A stretch of DNA of 64,000 nucleotides from Pseudomonadota bacterium (GTDB taxonomy: Bacteria; Bdellovibrionota; FAC87; UBA2466): assembly GCA_009927165.1 (NCBI GenBank), contig RFNO01000051.1, forward strand, positions 1-64,000. Direction: 5' to 3'. This document shows, one piece after another, positions 22,359 through 48,626 of this stretch. The notes below the pieces were generated by a model. The model was not told where the DNA came from, ran no database searches, and saw nothing but the letters and a program-made list of their open reading frames with translations. A program made the translations under genes and the position numbers. Each line of letters starts with the position of its first letter. Within the stretch, counting starts at the first letter, position 1.

Positions 22359-24284
22359 TTACCGTCGAGCTCGGAGGCGGCGCAGCAAATTGAGATCACT
22401 CGTGTCTTTCGCAAAATCCATCGCTGCTTCTAACTCTTCCGGGTCGTCGAAATACTCTGGGGGAATTTGGAGCAGAGTCTGATGGGCTTCCCCCCATTGA
22501 CCTGAGTCTCGTTCCAAAGTGAATCGGTAATAATTCAGCCATTGTGGCCCACCGCTGCCAATTTTTCTCAGTATTTCGAGCGCAGCTTTTTTATCTCCCA
22601 CTGCGTTTAGGCATTGGCTGAAATGAAAGCTCACACTAGCGTCGTCGGGATTCGATTCGTAGGCCTTTTGTCCATAGTGAAGCGCTTTTTCCAAAAGCCC
22701 ATTTTCAAAACAAAACGTGGATTTGTAATAATCTGTTTTTCTCCCCCATCCTTCCACTTTTCTAAGCTGCCGGTAGAACACTTCTGCTTCTTCATCTTCG
22801 CCGAGCAACAAAAAGGAATTTCCAATCACTGATAATGAAATGGGATGCAAAGACTTCATCGTGAGAAGCTCTTCTACCGCAGCTTCGTGATGTCTCTTGT
22901 CGGCTAATTTTGCATAGGCAAACACTCGGTTGAGAAGTGCGGGACGCAAACTAGGACTGGCCTCAATAGCTTTCTCATAAAATTCACGAGCCCCTTCAAA
23001 ATCTTTTTGAAAGTAACAAAGATTTCCTTCAAGCAGAAACAAGTACTCTTTTTCAAATGCTTCTTTTTCTCTGTCCCAGAAACGGATCCATGAGGCTCGA
23101 TCTTGATAGATCTTATTTTTTTGACGGGTCAGACTCTGTAAGACTTCCTTAAAGATGCTGTCAAAAAGTCTGTTTTGCTCTCCCCACAGTGCAAGAATTT
23201 TATCGATGAGCGTCTCTTTAAAAAGGAATCCTTCCCTGGCCAATTCATTAATCGTGTCGAACTGGGAAAAAAATTGGCTATCTATTTCCAAAAAACCGGC
23301 CCGTTCGGGATTCAAAAAGCAAAGATGATACAAATACCGAATAGTGGTCTCATAATCAGGAACTGAAATGGCTTCATGAGTAAACCACTGAATTTCAGTC
23401 ATCCAATAGAGACATGCTCTTACTTCCTCTTCGATAGCGATATCGCTAGTGAGGAGTCGCTGACCCAGGGGTTTTGCCCACCCCCAATGCTGACGGCGAA
23501 TGAGATTCAACATCAAAAACGGAATCCCCCCTTGCCGTTGCATACAGTCAGTCAAAATTTCAATCTCTCGCTCTAATTCAGCTTGCACAAATGCTTTGCC
23601 GAACAGGCCTTCCAACAGTTGCCGAGCAGGTTTACTGATCCGGCTCCCTTGCTCGGTAGCTGATTGAAATACTTTCCAGTACAGAGAAGCAACGAGAGTT
23701 GCGGCATCAGCAATTTCAGCGACTGAAAAGTCGGGCGAGTAAGATTCGGATTGTTGAGCATAATGCAATCCCGTTTGTTCCCTTTCGCCATGAAACACAA
23801 ACGCTTCCAAAAGCGCTTGAGAACTGGAACTTGGCTTGCCAAATGCTAATTTTCGCAACTCAACTAAAGCACGCAAGCCATCGATGACCCTTTTTTCCGC
23901 AAGCGAAAGGTTTTCTTCTTGAGCTTGATTGATTTGAAAGAGAAGAAGTTTTTCAGAGCTGTCATCTGCTTTTTCATAAAGAAGGAGCCACGTTTTAATT
24001 CGTGAGCGTTTCTGTTCATGTAGAAAAACAGAAGGGACCAGGCGATGCAGGAATTTCCAACGCCAGAAAAGAGATTCGGCCAAAAAAACTAGAGCCAAAC
24101 CCGCCACTAAGCCATACTGTTGGTAGAATACTCCTAAAACGAGAGCTCCTACTCCGATCAGCGACACCAACCCACTTATCGTCCAACGTACGTTCAATTG
24201 AGCACCTGCCTGTGGGGCCAATAGAGACCCAGCCTCCCCTGGGTAAGCAGCAAGCGCAATGCCAGTTGTTCCAGCGGGGATCAA
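22359..24284 (-). CDS. Membrane-anchored TPR protein
   Basis: I do not recognise a named gene. Two hydrophobic helices near the N-terminus (about 34-54 and 57-72 of the longest reading) are followed by a cytoplasmic or periplasmic helical domain with TPR repeats from about 400 (GNLCYFQKDFEGAREFYEKA, ALHYGQKAYESNPDDASVSF). The longest reading starts at TTG 24284 with no ribosome site. A start at TTG 24197 (LNVRWTISGL), preceded by AGGTG, is as likely, and a sigma-54-like element sits between the two, which favours the shorter protein. Confidence 0.7.
   Translation of the reverse strand: MIPAGTTGIALAAYPGEAGSLLAPQAGAQLNVRWTISGLVSLIGVGALVLGVFYQQYGLVAGLALVFLAESLFWRWKFLHRLVPSVFLHEQKRSRIKTWLLLYEKADDSSEKLLLFQINQAQEENLSLAEKRVIDGLRALVELRKLAFGKPSSSSQALLEAFVFHGEREQTGLHYAQQSESYSPDFSVAEIADAATLVASLYWKVFQSATEQGSRISKPARQLLEGLFGKAFVQAELEREIEILTDCMQRQGGIPFLMLNLIRRQHWGWAKPLGQRLLTSDIAIEEEVRACLYWMTEIQWFTHEAISVPDYETTIRYLYHLCFLNPERAGFLEIDSQFFSQFDTINELAREGFLFKETLIDKILALWGEQNRLFDSIFKEVLQSLTRQKNKIYQDRASWIRFWDREKEAFEKEYLFLLEGNLCYFQKDFEGAREFYEKAIEASPSLRPALLNRVFAYAKLADKRHHEAAVEELLTMKSLHPISLSVIGNSFLLLGEDEEAEVFYRQLRKVEGWGRKTDYYKSTFCFENGLLEKALHYGQKAYESNPDDASVSFHFSQCLNAVGDKKAALEILRKIGSGGPQWLNYYRFTLERDSGQWGEAHQTLLQIPPEYFDDPEELEAAMDFAKDTSDLNLLRRLRARR
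24249..24264 (-). promoter_or_regulatory. Candidate sigma-54 promoter for the TPR gene
   Basis: On the minus strand, TGGCAT-N5-TTGCT has the required GG-N10-GC spacing. Transcription would begin near 24238, after the longest reading's start codon but before the TTG at 24197. One base departs from TGGCAC. The location inside a possible coding region keeps confidence modest. Confidence 0.4.
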
Positions 24285-28365: not shown

Positions 28366-29722
28366 TTTTAGATTCGGAGAGATTGCGCCCTTCTCTCGAA
28401 ACCGGTACTCCATCGTTGCCAAGCGTAAACTCCTCTATTTGGGAGCTCACAGTATCGTTAATGTTTTTTGCACTTACCCGCCAGTAGTATTTGCCAGTGC
28501 CGAACAATTGAATTTCAACGGTAGTTCTTGATGTTTTATGAGAAATAAACTGATGAAAGTCTGGAGATCGGGCTATTTGTAGCTCATAAGAAATGGCTGA
28601 GCCGGGTAATTTGCTCCAACTCATACTAATCCACTGATCTTTTACTTGGCTTCCTGGAATCAAAAAGGGCGCATTGAGAAGGAGAGTGAAGTTCTGGAAT
28701 TTAAGCGAAGCAAGATTTGCCGGAGCTATTGCCGTTTCTGCTCCAAGAACGAGGTTCTTTTTTTTGTTGCTTTGAACCATTTGAGTGAGCTGAAATTGCT
28801 TTTTCTCCCACGCATCTAAATCTACAAGAGCGAGATTTCCCGCTAATAAGGAGGAAAGATCAATCTTTTGCTCGGGAACCAGTCGTATTGCTTTGGTATT
28901 CAACTGGGACAAAAGAGTTGTGAGGTCTCTTTGCTTTTCTTGCCATCCCTCCAAGTCCGCGATGCCAGAATAACTGACTAACAAGGGAGAAAAGTCTACT
29001 TTTATTTCGGCAATCAGCGGAATTCTTTTTTCGATTCTGTTTTGAACTAATTGATTGAGATTGTTTTGTTGTTCCTGCCATCCACTAACATCTACTAAAT
29101 CGGAAGCAGAAGTGATCAGTAAGGCAAGGCTAACTGGTATCTCATCAATTAGATTGAGATTTTTAGATGTTTCGGCTCGCATGACCTGTGTTAACTGACC
29201 TTGTTCTTTCGCCCAAAGTTCCGGATCGACAAAAAAAGTACTGACGGCATCCACTTTGGGATACGGAAGAACAGGGATAACCACATTTTTTTCAATTTGA
29301 ATGGACTGTTCATTTCCATTCGGATCTTTTGAGACAACCTTTGCCTCCCCTTCAAGAAGCAAAACATTCATGCGATCAGAGGATACATTGTCAAACTCAA
29401 CCATTGAGTCAGATTCTAGAAACAATTTTTCGTCTTTTGAAAGGGTAATGACGGCTGAAGACCCCTTGGGAGCGTACACCATATCTTTTTGATAAACGTT
29501 TCCTCGCCTTCGTATTCTGTCCCAAGACAGAGCCTTAGCGTGTCTTACTTGGACTGCGTTAGAAGTTTCCAGCACTCCAATCTTGATGGCATCTTTTAAT
29601 AGCAAAGCATCTGAACCTGACCAAGTGAGCGCAAAACTGGCCACTAGCGAAAGAGCAATCCCAATCCCAATCAGGATTCGGTCTTGTTTCGAATACATGT
29701 GTAAAACAGAATCGAATCGCAC
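28358..29722 (-). CDS. FecR-domain protein with four 45-residue repeats
   Basis: Membrane-anchored periplasmic protein. An N-terminal helix (about 16-34) is followed by a FecR-like domain (about 45-150: VQVRHAKALSWDRIRRRG, MVYAPKGSSAVITLS, LLLEGEAKVVSKD). Residues about 160-340 hold four tandem repeats marked by Trp170, Trp215, Trp260 and Trp305, exactly 45 residues apart, of the form VD.. ..W..[KE].Q..LTQ. The C-terminal 360-435 resembles an Fn3-type fold (ISYELQIARSPDF, GKYYWRVSAKN). GGAGGA precedes the GTG start. There is no FecI sigma factor beside it, so classical FecR signalling is unlikely. Confidence 0.75.
   Translation of the reverse strand: MRFDSVLHMYSKQDRILIGIGIALSLVASFALTWSGSDALLLKDAIKIGVLETSNAVQVRHAKALSWDRIRRRGNVYQKDMVYAPKGSSAVITLSKDEKLFLESDSMVEFDNVSSDRMNVLLLEGEAKVVSKDPNGNEQSIQIEKNVVIPVLPYPKVDAVSTFFVDPELWAKEQGQLTQVMRAETSKNLNLIDEIPVSLALLITSASDLVDVSGWQEQQNNLNQLVQNRIEKRIPLIAEIKVDFSPLLVSYSGIADLEGWQEKQRDLTTLLSQLNTKAIRLVPEQKIDLSSLLAGNLALVDLDAWEKKQFQLTQMVQSNKKKNLVLGAETAIAPANLASLKFQNFTLLLNAPFLIPGSQVKDQWISMSWSKLPGSAISYELQIARSPDFHQFISHKTSRTTVEIQLFGTGKYYWRVSAKNINDTVSSQIEEFTLGNDGVPVSREGRNLSESKND
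28703..29245 (-). repeat. Four 135-base (45-residue) coding repeats
   Basis: The Trp codons at about 29215, 29080, 28945 and 28810 mark four in-phase units with constant 45-residue length and diverged sequence. Constant length with diverged residues implies an old duplication kept under structural constraint. Confidence 0.75.
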
Positions 29723-29836
29723 AGACAGTTTCCTCCAAAGCTATTATCGGCAAAAAGAAGCCAAAACTGGGTAGCTTTTAAAAATAAATCTCCCTTTTTT
29801 GTCACTGAATCTGCCCTGAAGACTCAAAACACCATC

Positions 29837-29852
29837 TAAATAATTGTATTTA
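29837..29852. repeat. AT-only inverted repeat upstream of the sigma-54 promoter
   Basis: TAAATA at 29837-29842 and TATTTA at 29847-29852 are perfect arms around ATTG, 35 bases upstream of the -24 element. A binding site for an activator or a bending site is possible. Confidence 0.35.
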
Positions 29853-29886
29853 TTGTGTAACTTTTGTGCCTGAATACTCCTTCTCA

Positions 29887-29902
29887 TGGCACAGTGGTTG
29901 CT
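29887..29902 (+). promoter_or_regulatory. Sigma-54 (-24/-12) promoter
   Basis: TGGCAC at 29887-29892 and TTGCT at 29898-29902 match the RpoN consensus at every core base, with GG and GC exactly ten bases apart. It points at the small gene starting at 29983 and implies a start near 29913 and a leader of about 70 bases. Confidence 0.85.
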
Positions 29903-29917
29903 TTTTCCTCATTCGCC

Positions 29918-29962
29918 AAGAGCGAAGGCGCTTTTGGGTGTTTTAAGGGCCAAGTGGTTGGC
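29918..29962 (+). other. Structured leader: two hairpins before the small gene
   Basis: AAGAGCG/CGCTTTT (29918-29924 and 29929-29935, one G-U pair, AAGG loop) and GCCAA/TTGGC (29949-29953 and 29958-29962, GTGG loop) lie at the 5' end of the expected sigma-54 transcript, ahead of GGAGG at 29974-29978. They may stabilise the mRNA or regulate its translation. Confidence 0.5.
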
Positions 29963-29982
29963 GGTATTTAAGCGGAGGTTAT

Positions 29983-30261
29983 ATGGCTCATCGAGACCGT
30001 AGTGCTGGACATGCTTTTATGTACCTGGATATCCAAAGTCTTCTTCAACAAACGCAAGAGGTTCAAAAAGCATCACAAGCGGGGCAACCCGTTACTACCC
30101 AGTCCCAAGAGACCCACCAGTTTGCTTCAACGAACTCAGCTCTCACGACATCGGATGCTTCGGTTCAGCAGATTCAAGGAAATTTAGAAAGGCTCCAAAG
30201 CCTTCATCATAAACTTCATGCCATGCTTGAAGAGCTCAATAAAATTACTGGAAAAAAGTAA
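29983..30261 (+). CDS. Small sigma-54-dependent protein (92 aa), unknown
   Basis: No family recognised and no signal peptide or membrane helix. The N-terminal 25 residues include MYLDIQSLLQQTQEVQ; the middle (30-65) is rich in Gln, Ser, Thr and His and probably disordered; the C-terminal 25 residues (NLERLQSLHHKLHAMLEE) form a likely amphipathic coiled coil. GGAGG is ideally spaced before the ATG, and a consensus sigma-54 promoter with a hairpin leader lies upstream, so it is a real, strongly controlled gene. It is divergent from the FecR/repeat operon. A cytoplasmic adaptor, chaperone-like or structural small protein would fit. Confidence 0.8.
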   Translation: MAHRDRSAGHAFMYLDIQSLLQQTQEVQKASQAGQPVTTQSQETHQFASTNSALTTSDASVQQIQGNLERLQSLHHKLHAMLEELNKITGKK

Positions 30262-30266
30262 GTACG

Positions 30267-30641
30267 TTACGGAATGACTGGCTGTTGATTCAGAGGCAAG
30301 TCCCTTTTAGGAGCAAATATTCCTGCGGGACCTCGTTGCAATCTCATTTCTTTGGGTTTGTCACAATACTTTTTGCCGCTGGTGTCTCCCGGACAGTACC
30401 ATGTATCAATCAATTGAACGAGAGTTCTCCCATAGCCGGCGTAATAGTTTTCATACTGATGATGATCGAGAGTGGAAAGAACCACTTCTTGCTTTTGACG
30501 GCGATTTCTTTCGTCAAAAGATGTGACTTTGAGCTTAAAGAGGCGATAGGCTCCCCGAGCCGGAGAGCCCATCCCCAAACTTACGAAAAGAACTAGAGCG
30601 AGACACCGATTAATTCTTTTGTGGCGTGCTAGAGCTGGCAT
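30267..30641 (-). CDS. Small secreted hypothetical protein
   Basis: A 124-residue protein with a signal peptide (CLALVLFVSLGMGSPARGA, cleavage near residue 31) and a short basic mature part containing two Cys (WYCPGD and KYCDKP). I recognise no domain. The start overlaps the end of the upstream PpiC/SurA-like lipoprotein gene by 32 bases, an unusually long overlap, so the start could be further in. It is the last gene of the minus group with that lipoprotein and an outer-membrane barrel. Confidence 0.6.
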   Translation of the reverse strand: MPALARHKRINRCLALVLFVSLGMGSPARGAYRLFKLKVTSFDERNRRQKQEVVLSTLDHHQYENYYAGYGRTLVQLIDTWYCPGDTSGKKYCDKPKEMRLQRGPAGIFAPKRDLPLNQQPVIP

Positions 30642-45123: not shown

Positions 45124-46485
45124 TTAACGAAGCCCCAGTTCTTTCATTTTTAATTGTAGGCCTTTTCGGCTCAAATTGAGTACCCGAGCAGCTTGAGTTA
45201 CGTTTTGGTGAGTTTCAGCTAGAGCTTCTTCAATAGCCTTTTTTTCAATTCGACGGGTGGCATCCTTAACCCGTTCACGCAATCCACCTCCCAAAGAGGC
45301 TTGTCTTTCTATGAATTGCTCCTCTTCATAATCTAGGATTTCTTCGGGAAGTTGTTCTGGATGAATCATGGGCCCTTCAGCCATAATAAGACATCGTTCC
45401 ACCACATTCTCTAATTGGCGAATATTTCCCGGCCAAGGAAACTGCATGAGGAGTTCCAGCGTTTCCGCTGAAAATTGTGGATTGTCTCTTTTCAGTCGGG
45501 TTGAAAGCTTTCTGGAAAAATGGGCTACTAATAAGGGGATATCCTCTCGACGCTCTCGCAAAGGAGCCAAATGAATGGGAACAACATTTAATCGGTAAAA
45601 CAAGTCACTTCTAAATCTACCGTTTTTCACTTCAGCTTCGAGATCCTTGTTGGTAGCAGCTACCAATCGGACGTCTACTTGAATTGTTTTGATTCCGCCT
45701 ACCCGTTCAAACGAACGTTCTTGTAACACTCTTAGGAGTTTCACTTGCATTTCGGGAGACATCTCTCCGATTTCATCCAAGAACAAAGTGCCTTTATGAG
45801 CTAGTTCAAAGCGCCCAGGCTTGGTGCTTTGGGCCCCCGTGAAAGCTCCTTTTTCATACCCGAACAATTCACTTTCCAAAAGGCTTTCCGGGATAGCAGC
45901 ACAATTTATTTTGATAAACGGTCCTGTGTTTCTATTACTTCTCTCGTGAATGGACTGGGCGATGAGCTCTTTTCCCGTCCCGCTTTCTCCGGAAATAAGG
46001 ACGGTGGTGTCTGCTGCTGCAACCCGCTCAACCAAATGAAGTGCTTTTTGCGTCAAAGGAGAGTTTCCTACTAAGAGATTTCCTTCGGATGTTTTAAGAT
46101 TGTTTTGCCGATTAAACTTATGCGTCAACAAAGCCTTCTCAATAACTCTCAAAAGCTCTTGCCGGTCAAAGGGTTTGCTGAGGTAATCAAAAGCCCCCTG
46201 CTTCATGGCATCCACTGCCGAGTCAATGCTCCCATGAGCCGTTAATATAATAACGGGGATATTAAACCCCTCTTCTCTCAACCACTTCAACAGACTCAGA
46301 CCATCTTCTCGCTCAAGGCGTAGATCGGTCAGGATGACTTGGATATCTTTTGTTCTGATGTGCTCTTTTGCTTCTGCTAGGAAACTTGCCGTTGAAGGAT
46401 GGTGTCCTTCAGCGACTAACATTGCTTTTAATATTTTCCGGATATTACCTTCATCATCTAAGACCAGAATTTGAGCGTCGTTCAT
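45124..46485 (-). CDS. NtrC-family sigma-54 response regulator
   Basis: Three domains in order: a receiver (about 5-118) with phosphoacceptor Asp54 in LTDLRL and the Lys of SKPF; a sigma-54 AAA+ domain (about 138-370) with Walker A GESGTGKE at 166-173, the sigma-54 contact loop GAFTGA at 213-218 and Walker B LFLDEIG; and a Fis-type helix-turn-helix (about 410-453, NVTQAARVLNLSRKGLQLKM). All parts needed for an active enhancer-binding activator are intact. It overlaps the upstream kinase gene by four bases, which marks the pair as cognate. Its targets may include the sigma-54 promoters in this window. Confidence 0.95.
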   Translation of the reverse strand: MNDAQILVLDDEGNIRKILKAMLVAEGHHPSTASFLAEAKEHIRTKDIQVILTDLRLEREDGLSLLKWLREEGFNIPVIILTAHGSIDSAVDAMKQGAFDYLSKPFDRQELLRVIEKALLTHKFNRQNNLKTSEGNLLVGNSPLTQKALHLVERVAAADTTVLISGESGTGKELIAQSIHERSNRNTGPFIKINCAAIPESLLESELFGYEKGAFTGAQSTKPGRFELAHKGTLFLDEIGEMSPEMQVKLLRVLQERSFERVGGIKTIQVDVRLVAATNKDLEAEVKNGRFRSDLFYRLNVVPIHLAPLRERREDIPLLVAHFSRKLSTRLKRDNPQFSAETLELLMQFPWPGNIRQLENVVERCLIMAEGPMIHPEQLPEEILDYEEEQFIERQASLGGGLRERVKDATRRIEKKAIEEALAETHQNVTQAARVLNLSRKGLQLKMKELGLR

Positions 46486-48626
46486 GCGGGTACCTCCGAC
46501 CAGATGCTAGCACTTGCCAGTTTTTTGGAACGTACATGTCCAGGTACATGAAGAATAAATCGAGTGCCTCGCGGTAGATTCGGTTTCACTTGAATGGATC
46601 CCCCTACCGATTCCATGAGTCTTTGGCAAATAGGCAAACCCAGGCCCGTGCCAGCGGATTTGGTGGTGTAGAACGGCATAAATATTTTTGTTAAATCAGT
46701 CACAGGAATACCAGGGCCATTGTCTTGCACCTGAATTTCGACAAAAGGCTTCCACACTTGCTCTTGAGGGCTTCTCCAACCTTCAAAGGCTTTATACAAG
46801 GGAATTCCCAACCCCCAACGAAACTTGGGCTTAATTTCTTTTACCACTACTTTAAGAGTGCCATCGGGGGTCTCATCTAGGGCTTGTATGGCGTTTAAAA
46901 ACAGGTTCAGCAGCACTTGTTTTAAAATCTCAGGATCCACGTCGGCTTGGATGTCATTGGCGTCACTTTGAACTGCAAACTTCACTTTGGAATCGCGCAA
47001 TACTAGCGCTGCCGTATGTTCAATTACTTTCAAAGGCCAACAGGAGGACTCCGGATCGTGTCGCCTCGGTCGCGCATAATCCAAGAACTGAGTTAATACG
47101 CCCGATAAACGATCGGCCTCAGCTTTAATAATTGCTAAGTATTCAGAAGCTTCCTTTTCGTTTTTATCGTCCGAAAGAAGCTCAGCAGCTCCTTTGATAG
47201 CTCCCAGTGGATTTTTAATCTCGTGAGCTAGACCCGCAGCCATTTCCCCGATCGCTGCAAGCTTGTCTCGATCGCGAAGAACAGTAAGAGTTTGAGCACT
47301 TTTCAAGAGCAGCGCAATCTGTCGAGCCACTGGAACAAACAATCGCAACAAGTCATTGCTCACGATTATCTTTTCACTTAAGGGCGCCGCTACAAAGCCA
47401 ATGACTTTTGCATCGTAAAAAAACGGAATAATCAAATCCACGGCTAGCTGCTTGAGAGACTCCAAACAATCCTCAACAAACTTTTTTCCTTGTGTTGAAT
47501 GAAACGATTCGAGATCGCTTCTCAATGACTCGACAACGAAAGGTCTTCCCCGTCGAAGTGTCATGTATTCGGCCAGGGAACTAGAAGCAGACAACTCGGA
47601 CGCGGGTTCCCCGCTGGCGAGTTCCGCTCTGACATAACTGACGCCGTCCCTTTCAAGCAAATAAAGCGATGCTTTTTCAATCCCCAAGACTAATTTGAGA
47701 CTTTCTCTGATGCGCCTGGAGAGTTCTACGGGGTCTGCAATTCCTCTTAAGTCATCAGCTAAGGCATTCAGCTCGCGTTCGAGCTCGATGTCTCGCTTCA
47801 AGAAAAGTTTTTTCATCAGTCGGCTCACTGCCGAACGGAGAGGATCAAAAAGAACCATAATGGCAAAAGATGCAATAAACGTGTTGAACAGGAATAAGCC
47901 TGGCCGCGTATCCACCCAACTGACCAAAAGCCAGTAAATCAGAGACAAAACTACCGAAATAACTCCAAAAAGAAAAATTCGTGAAAGAAGCTCAGGGGTG
48001 GTTAACAACTCTCGCTGGATGAATAACTGAAATAAAAAGATAAGGTAAACTGAACGAGCCAAAGTTCCTAACGGCACGATGGCGCTCTGTTCGGTAAAAT
48101 AAAGTGTATCGGTGAGATGCAGCCCGACCACCAAAACAAGTCCCCAAACAGCGTAACGGTAGCGCACTTTTTCACGAGGGAGTTCCTCTTCCTGCGTGGC
48201 CCGAACCATTGTTACAGTCCATACATAAGCAGGAAATAAAAAGGTCGCTTCTGCGATGGCAAGGATTAAGCTTCCGTACCGGTCTGCATTCAGCCAGAAA
48301 GTGGTTAATCCGAGGCCCAGTAAAAGGGTCGCATACGGGATTGCCAAATGCTTCAGCCGTTTTTTTTGCGTTGGTCTTAATTCAGACAGCCACCACAAAC
48401 TACTGAGTCCCACGAAAAGAGTGACCCAAAGAAACAGAGTTTGATTAAAAAGAACTGGGTGCTCAAAGCCCCTCATCAAACAAAGAACATCACGAGTCAG
48501 TAAAACTCCGCAGAAAAGGGAAAAAGAAATATAAAGGGGGTTTCGAAAGTTTTTAATGAGCACTGCAATCGCAAGGAACGCGCTCACAAATGCCGAAACG
48601 ATAAGTGTAATCGTATCAATTCGCAT
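46482..48626 (-). CDS. Membrane sensor histidine kinase (GAF, HisKA, HATPase)
   Basis: About eight membrane helices fill residues 1-265, followed by a GAF-like domain (about 285-440), HisKA with His468 in GLAHEIKNPLGAIKGA, and an HATPase_c domain with the N-box LLNLFLNAIQAL and G boxes DNGPGI and GTGLGLPI. Between N-box and G1 there is an extra stretch of about 30 residues (from KFRWGLGIPLYK to EQVWKPF), longer than usual. Layout resembles PrsK, the kinase of the PrsK/PrsR pair in exosortase-bearing bacteria. The signal is unknown. It overlaps the NtrC-type regulator by ATGA. Confidence 0.92.
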   Translation of the reverse strand: MRIDTITLIVSAFVSAFLAIAVLIKNFRNPLYISFSLFCGVLLTRDVLCLMRGFEHPVLFNQTLFLWVTLFVGLSSLWWLSELRPTQKKRLKHLAIPYATLLLGLGLTTFWLNADRYGSLILAIAEATFLFPAYVWTVTMVRATQEEELPREKVRYRYAVWGLVLVVGLHLTDTLYFTEQSAIVPLGTLARSVYLIFLFQLFIQRELLTTPELLSRIFLFGVISVVLSLIYWLLVSWVDTRPGLFLFNTFIASFAIMVLFDPLRSAVSRLMKKLFLKRDIELERELNALADDLRGIADPVELSRRIRESLKLVLGIEKASLYLLERDGVSYVRAELASGEPASELSASSSLAEYMTLRRGRPFVVESLRSDLESFHSTQGKKFVEDCLESLKQLAVDLIIPFFYDAKVIGFVAAPLSEKIIVSNDLLRLFVPVARQIALLLKSAQTLTVLRDRDKLAAIGEMAAGLAHEIKNPLGAIKGAAELLSDDKNEKEASEYLAIIKAEADRLSGVLTQFLDYARPRRHDPESSCWPLKVIEHTAALVLRDSKVKFAVQSDANDIQADVDPEILKQVLLNLFLNAIQALDETPDGTLKVVVKEIKPKFRWGLGIPLYKAFEGWRSPQEQVWKPFVEIQVQDNGPGIPVTDLTKIFMPFYTTKSAGTGLGLPICQRLMESVGGSIQVKPNLPRGTRFILHVPGHVRSKKLASASIWSEVPA

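Follow-up and report, generated by a model that had tools for sequence, protein, structure and literature searches.

A putative sigma-54 promoter conserved upstream of a small protein gene of no named family in the Bdellovibrionota

Canonical sigma-54 promoters are typified by the consensus TGGCAC-N5-TTGCW with GG-N10-GC spacing and the company of RpoN and AAA+ activators, all of which are shared by the locus described here; a palindromic upstream site, about 80–165 bases away, is clear in f8-type relatives and in the window's family well conserved in its left half only. Unlike the canonical cases, this locus would control a protein family that is unnamed in the libraries searched, and its dependence on RpoN is predicted; a literature search surfaced no dedicated study of sigma-54 in the phylum. 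PilR half-sites have the form (C/G)TGTC, although a literature search for the PilR consensus did not recover these half-sites, and the locus differs from PilR-controlled pilin promoters in that no pilin or pilus gene was recognised near the small gene. The GlrR/QseF regulon of enterobacteria (glmY, rpoE) resembles the locus in its TGTC...GACA half-sites upstream of a sigma-54 promoter and in its link to envelope genes, the published GlrR site being TGTC-N10-GACA (PMC8745638, PMC4987338). The spacing here is N9 in f8-type genomes, whereas the form is TCAC-N10-GTGA in the window's family and TCAC-N10-CTGA in the window itself (the window being the whole 64,000-nucleotide stretch of DNA analysed), and none of the five activators scanned, out of 11 in the window's own genome, reaches a curated NCBIfam cut-off, including that of GlrR (763 bits). 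Small coiled-coil adaptor proteins in general share with the encoded protein a disordered linker and one long helix, but the latter differs from them in lacking any Pfam or NCBIfam match and in giving weak PDB matches to generic helical chains.

The sigma-54 box, TGGCACAGTGGTTGCT, occupies positions 29887–29902 on the + strand, its GG lying at -24 and its GC at -12, and nowhere else in the 64-kb window is TGGCACN5TTGCW matched exactly. The ATG (29983) stands 80 bases 3' of the box, which confirms the earlier note's description of TGGCAC-N5-TTGCT with GG-N10-GC spacing about 80 bases before a small gene; its chance rate of once per four million positions for 11 fixed bases also agrees with the recalculated value (about 1 in 4.2 million per position). 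As the window is not enriched over shuffles when up to two mismatches are allowed (27 versus 29.9 sites), the lone exact site is informative only together with further evidence. The window's own genome contains 21 exact TGGCAYN5TTGCW sites against one for the reversed pattern, part of them within coding frames (e.g. murC-like and lepA-like, by eye), where they are probably not promoters. Another sequence in the window, TGGCATTGCGCTTGCT (24249–24264, - strand), is exact under TGGCAY and lies at the start of a long frame (22359–24284), for which it could serve as promoter if translation begins later.

Further evidence is provided by homologs of the small gene. A tblastn-type search picked up 17 of 59 relatives; one match, in a DnaK-like frame, was spurious, and the box was found upstream of every true homolog read from this search. 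The long-form profile built from 16 homologs detects the family in 77 of the 369 genomes of the phylum and a short-form profile in 167 of 369, with a single match each among the matches listed; the small-protein family is present in 100 of the 182 genera surveyed. Sixty-four loci were inspected, 12 of which belong to the window's own family and order, and a -24/-12 box is located within 400 bases upstream in 53 of them (51 exact, two with one mismatch), at 39–184 bases from the start. The fixed bases are invariant in all 50 exact boxes tallied while the distance to the start varies over this range, which argues against passive sequence similarity. Elsewhere in the same loci there are 20 exact sites per 1.27 million strand positions, so a box would be expected by chance in about 0.7% of upstream regions; the binomial P of about 1e-97 for 53/64 against this background is a guide only, as it is uncorrected for genome relatedness. 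Promoter conservation reaches 53 of the 54 orthologs possessing either the N-terminal motif described below or the promoter. The earlier note had held that its claim would be refuted if gene and promoter were not conserved in relatives; both proved to be kept, at 53/64 loci, and no refutation resulted. A chance match of the box was rejected on this conservation upstream of homologs. The wider reading, in which the gene is driven from a sigma-70 promoter and the box is accidental, would accord with the lack of enrichment of two-mismatch sites in the window, but it is extremely improbable, as the box is kept at 53 loci despite variable distances and a simple scan of 29720–29982 revealed no sigma-70-like site. 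The promoter at 29887–29902 is thus almost certainly real, as judged from sequence conservation.

The small gene (29983–30261, + strand) encodes a protein of 92 amino acids and is preceded by the ribosome-binding site GGAGG (29974–29978), in agreement with the ideal ribosome site reported previously. The predicted 5' untranslated leader extends over 29913–29982, its start being placed 12 bases after the -12 element, and includes a hairpin at 29916–29937. The next gene (30267–30641) is convergent and the transcript is therefore probably monocistronic. Dedicated sigma-54 control of a lone small gene, as put forward in the earlier note, is accordingly favoured by this gene arrangement and by the promoter in 53/54 orthologs. 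Leaders across the homologs measure 13–158 bases and many contain a hairpin, and sigma-54 boxes elsewhere (L026 and L150, see below) precede non-coding, terminator-like stretches, which would suit a promoter that chiefly makes a regulatory RNA, with the open reading frame secondary. This is nevertheless very unlikely, as the protein is conserved across the phylum, while the leaders differ in sequence, show as a group barely any excess of structure over shuffles (mean z -0.49, so that a conserved leader structure was rejected) and are only 13–19 bases long in four of five f4 genomes. Among f8-type leaders, for example L094, L105 and L108, the end next to the ribosome site is often a repeat of GAAGCAGAAGCAGA or GTTGAAGTTGAAG-like type; GCCCATGTTG is found again in distant families.

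The protein contains two conserved regions. The N-terminal motif, DRSAGHAFMYLDI (residues 5–17; 29995–30033, + strand), corresponds to DxSQxxxFVYxN in the family, and the C-terminal amphipathic helix (residues 53–89; 30139–30249, + strand) corresponds to LKxNLxxLxxLHxRLxFMLxELxxL, where N67, L71 and L78 are invariant. AlphaFold2 predicts helix 53–89 with high confidence (pLDDT 85–94 at residues 61–90) and a weaker helix at 17–32, with low confidence between the two, and across the family the linker can be as short as a few residues or exceed 100. The disordered segment plus coiled coil proposed before is consistent with this model, which suggests a disordered middle and one long helix. No Pfam family matches the protein (best score 14.9 bits versus a cut-off of 25.4), no NCBIfam family matches more than one of 28 members above its curated cut-off, and a PDB sequence search returned weak E-values only, to generic helical proteins; the earlier statement that the protein belongs to no known family thus holds for Pfam and NCBIfam. 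By a crude hydropathy test a signal-peptide-like N-terminus is mostly absent from the family (median hydropathy 0.86), pointing to a cytoplasmic product.

The N-terminal motif and the box are closely associated, as 51 of the 64 loci carry both, one the motif only, two the box only and ten neither (Fisher p = 4.6e-9, not corrected for phylogeny). The ten loci with neither, from five families (f6, f12, f15, f19 and f22), still have the C-terminal helix, and the two box-bearing loci with a degenerate N-terminus belong to one genus. The motif-only locus is from genome G352 (L118, G352:C330), where a deletion of about 60 bases relative to the close relative G353 (L102, G353:C178) takes out the promoter from otherwise near-identical upstream regions; the G352 assembly is 75% complete and RpoN is absent from its listed matches. 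Three f24 genomes bridge the two groups, combining the motif and the box with the short-form families' gene order. Loss of RpoN was rejected as the cause of promoter-less orthologs, since most such families retain it; the gene itself therefore either lost the promoter or never acquired it. RpoN is encoded in 341 of the 369 genomes, including the window's own (G000:C85:8260–8736, E 1.3e-63).

Upstream of the box, the candidate activator site TGTCAC-N11-TGA (29800–29819, + strand), which can be read as the imperfect palindrome TCAC-N10-CTGA, was recognised by its conserved TGTCAC and its position, about 87 bases 5' of the -24 box, which corresponds to that of a palindrome in other families. Of the 12 loci from the window's family and order, about 10 have TGTCAC at a near-constant distance from the -24 box. 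Within the window's family this left half alone is well conserved, perfect half-site pairs (TCAC-N10-GTGA) being found in L002, L073 and L005, where the partner in the window is CTGA. Over the wider set, the palindrome TGTCTAANNNTTAGACA (at least 11 of 14 matches) lies 81–165 bases before the -24 box at 25 of 53 loci, against 8 to 9 on average in shuffles; it or a near form is situated upstream of the box in f8, f29 and some further families, and f4 carries GTGCCAATTTGGGGCAC-like sites there. The form of the site thus varies by family (TCAC-N10-GTGA, TGTC-N9-GACA or TGCC-N7-GGCA). The earlier note had taken an AT-only inverted repeat as a possible activator site. The repeat itself is present (TAAATAATTGTATTTA, 29838–29853, at most one base from where it had been placed) within an AT-rich tract (29836–29860, + strand) between the candidate site and the promoter, but its activator role is not supported, as relatives share the AT-richness and not the repeat, whereas TGTCAC is conserved. 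The activator site is therefore probably the TGTCAC element, and the AT-rich tract may possibly bend the DNA. Two direct-repeat copies, CCTGAAGACTC (29815–29825) and CCTGAATACTC (29869–29879, just 5' of the -24 box), are also seen on the + strand, and TGAAKAC repeats are found in L002 and L073 as well.

The window's own genome encodes full activator domains in 11 strong PF00158 matches. The window itself contains an NtrC-type response regulator gene beside a large sensor-kinase-like gene (45124–48626, - strand; kinase by eye), the best NCBIfam matches of the regulator being AtoC/NtrC, under the cut-off. Taken together, the regulatory part of the proposed mechanism is quite probable from sequence comparison: an RpoN promoter at 29887–29902, under an enhancer-binding activator whose site would lie near 29800, would transcribe a single gene for a small cytoplasmic protein. 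Transcription from the promoter, the activator site and the function below are steps that we infer.

The site-plus-promoter composite indicates what else such an activator might control. The combination of TGTC-N9-GACA and a box was searched in 25 genomes of other families and gave 19 hits against no control hits, six at the small gene and 13 elsewhere. Downstream of twelve of these 13 lies a frame whose N-terminus is hydrophobic, in many cases that of a lipoprotein (p 1e-4, a soft value, as the frame starts were chosen by eye). The remaining one is followed by a short terminator-like stretch and resembles a small RNA. At L150 (G361:C237), TGTC-N9-GACA and a box are followed within about 100 bases by a strong terminator-like hairpin, with no nearby open reading frame, making it a candidate sigma-54-driven small RNA. 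L026 (G000:C21:11087–11102) has a consensus box with TTTGTCAC upstream at about the window's distance, and precedes a stretch without a good open reading frame and with a long terminator-like hairpin; it is likewise a candidate for a sigma-54-driven small RNA. Since the window's own composite (candidate site plus box) occurs once in its genome and the search was carried out in other families, membership of the small gene in an envelope-related sigma-54 regulon is a best guess, made by analogy.

The protein may be a two-ended adaptor made when the envelope programme is on, in which the N-terminal motif would dock to one partner and the C-terminal amphipathic helix would pair with itself or with another, the two ends being tethered by a disordered stretch whose length varies widely. 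This function is the most likely of those considered, and yet doubtful, being the weak step of the mechanism; the idea draws on the architecture of the protein and the company kept by the activator site, and against the envelope-programme reading the presumed co-regulated genes are mostly exported or lipoprotein genes, unlike the small protein. A further proposal, with the balance still against it, is that gain or loss of the N-terminal motif went hand in hand with that of the sigma-54 promoter in a previously undescribed, phylum-wide and usually single-copy family, whose product would be the sole cytoplasmic member of an activator-controlled envelope programme that is otherwise exported. Single copy in most genomes, a cytoplasmic product, a dedicated promoter and an activator site common to envelope genes would also fit a protein that regulates the sigma-54 regulon itself, e.g. 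as a feedback anti-activator, but this is unlikely, as several lineages retain the C-terminal helix without a sigma-54 promoter and the protein resembles no named family.

The convergent gene at 30267–30641 (- strand) encodes a protein of 124 amino acids with a signal-peptide-like N-terminus (by eye) and is assigned to the ancestral neighbourhood, its homologs being found near the small gene in 18 loci, other families included. A recurrent order is seen across families, with gaps: the small gene, a coiled-coil/HSP20 gene, a small exported protein, another gene and a PBECR2-like gene. The HSP20-domain coiled-coil gene is close to the small gene in 43 loci read, where it is encoded on the other strand and in most cases immediately downstream, which would be expected if the small protein partnered its product in a cytoplasmic structure or chaperone complex. 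Co-occurrence weakens this reading and leaves it a slim prospect: the small gene is present in the window's family and in f4, where the full coiled-coil HSP20 form was not found (only ordinary HSP20-domain matches or none), and the window retains the exported-protein gene beside the small gene without an HSP20 gene. Conversely, in f9 (L185, L186, L187, L188 and L190) the HSP20 coiled-coil and exported-protein genes are kept together, with no small-gene homolog seen beside them; an MgtC-like or acylphosphatase-like frame (by eye) stands in its place. Nothing among the conserved neighbours was recognised as a flagellar, pilus or developmental gene, so that the developmental or motility role suggested earlier finds no backing.

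The promoter, retained by 53 orthologs from several families, represents a clean, short target for regulon mapping, and the palindrome offers a handle on the candidate activator. As the family spans about half of the genera surveyed and is nameless in Pfam and NCBIfam, it constitutes an annotation gap that can be tested in culturable relatives. In the window's own genome, a sigma-54 box also precedes a fliL-like gene (L034, G000:C67:70258; by eye), and flagellar sigma-54 control may therefore exist there, separate from the small gene.
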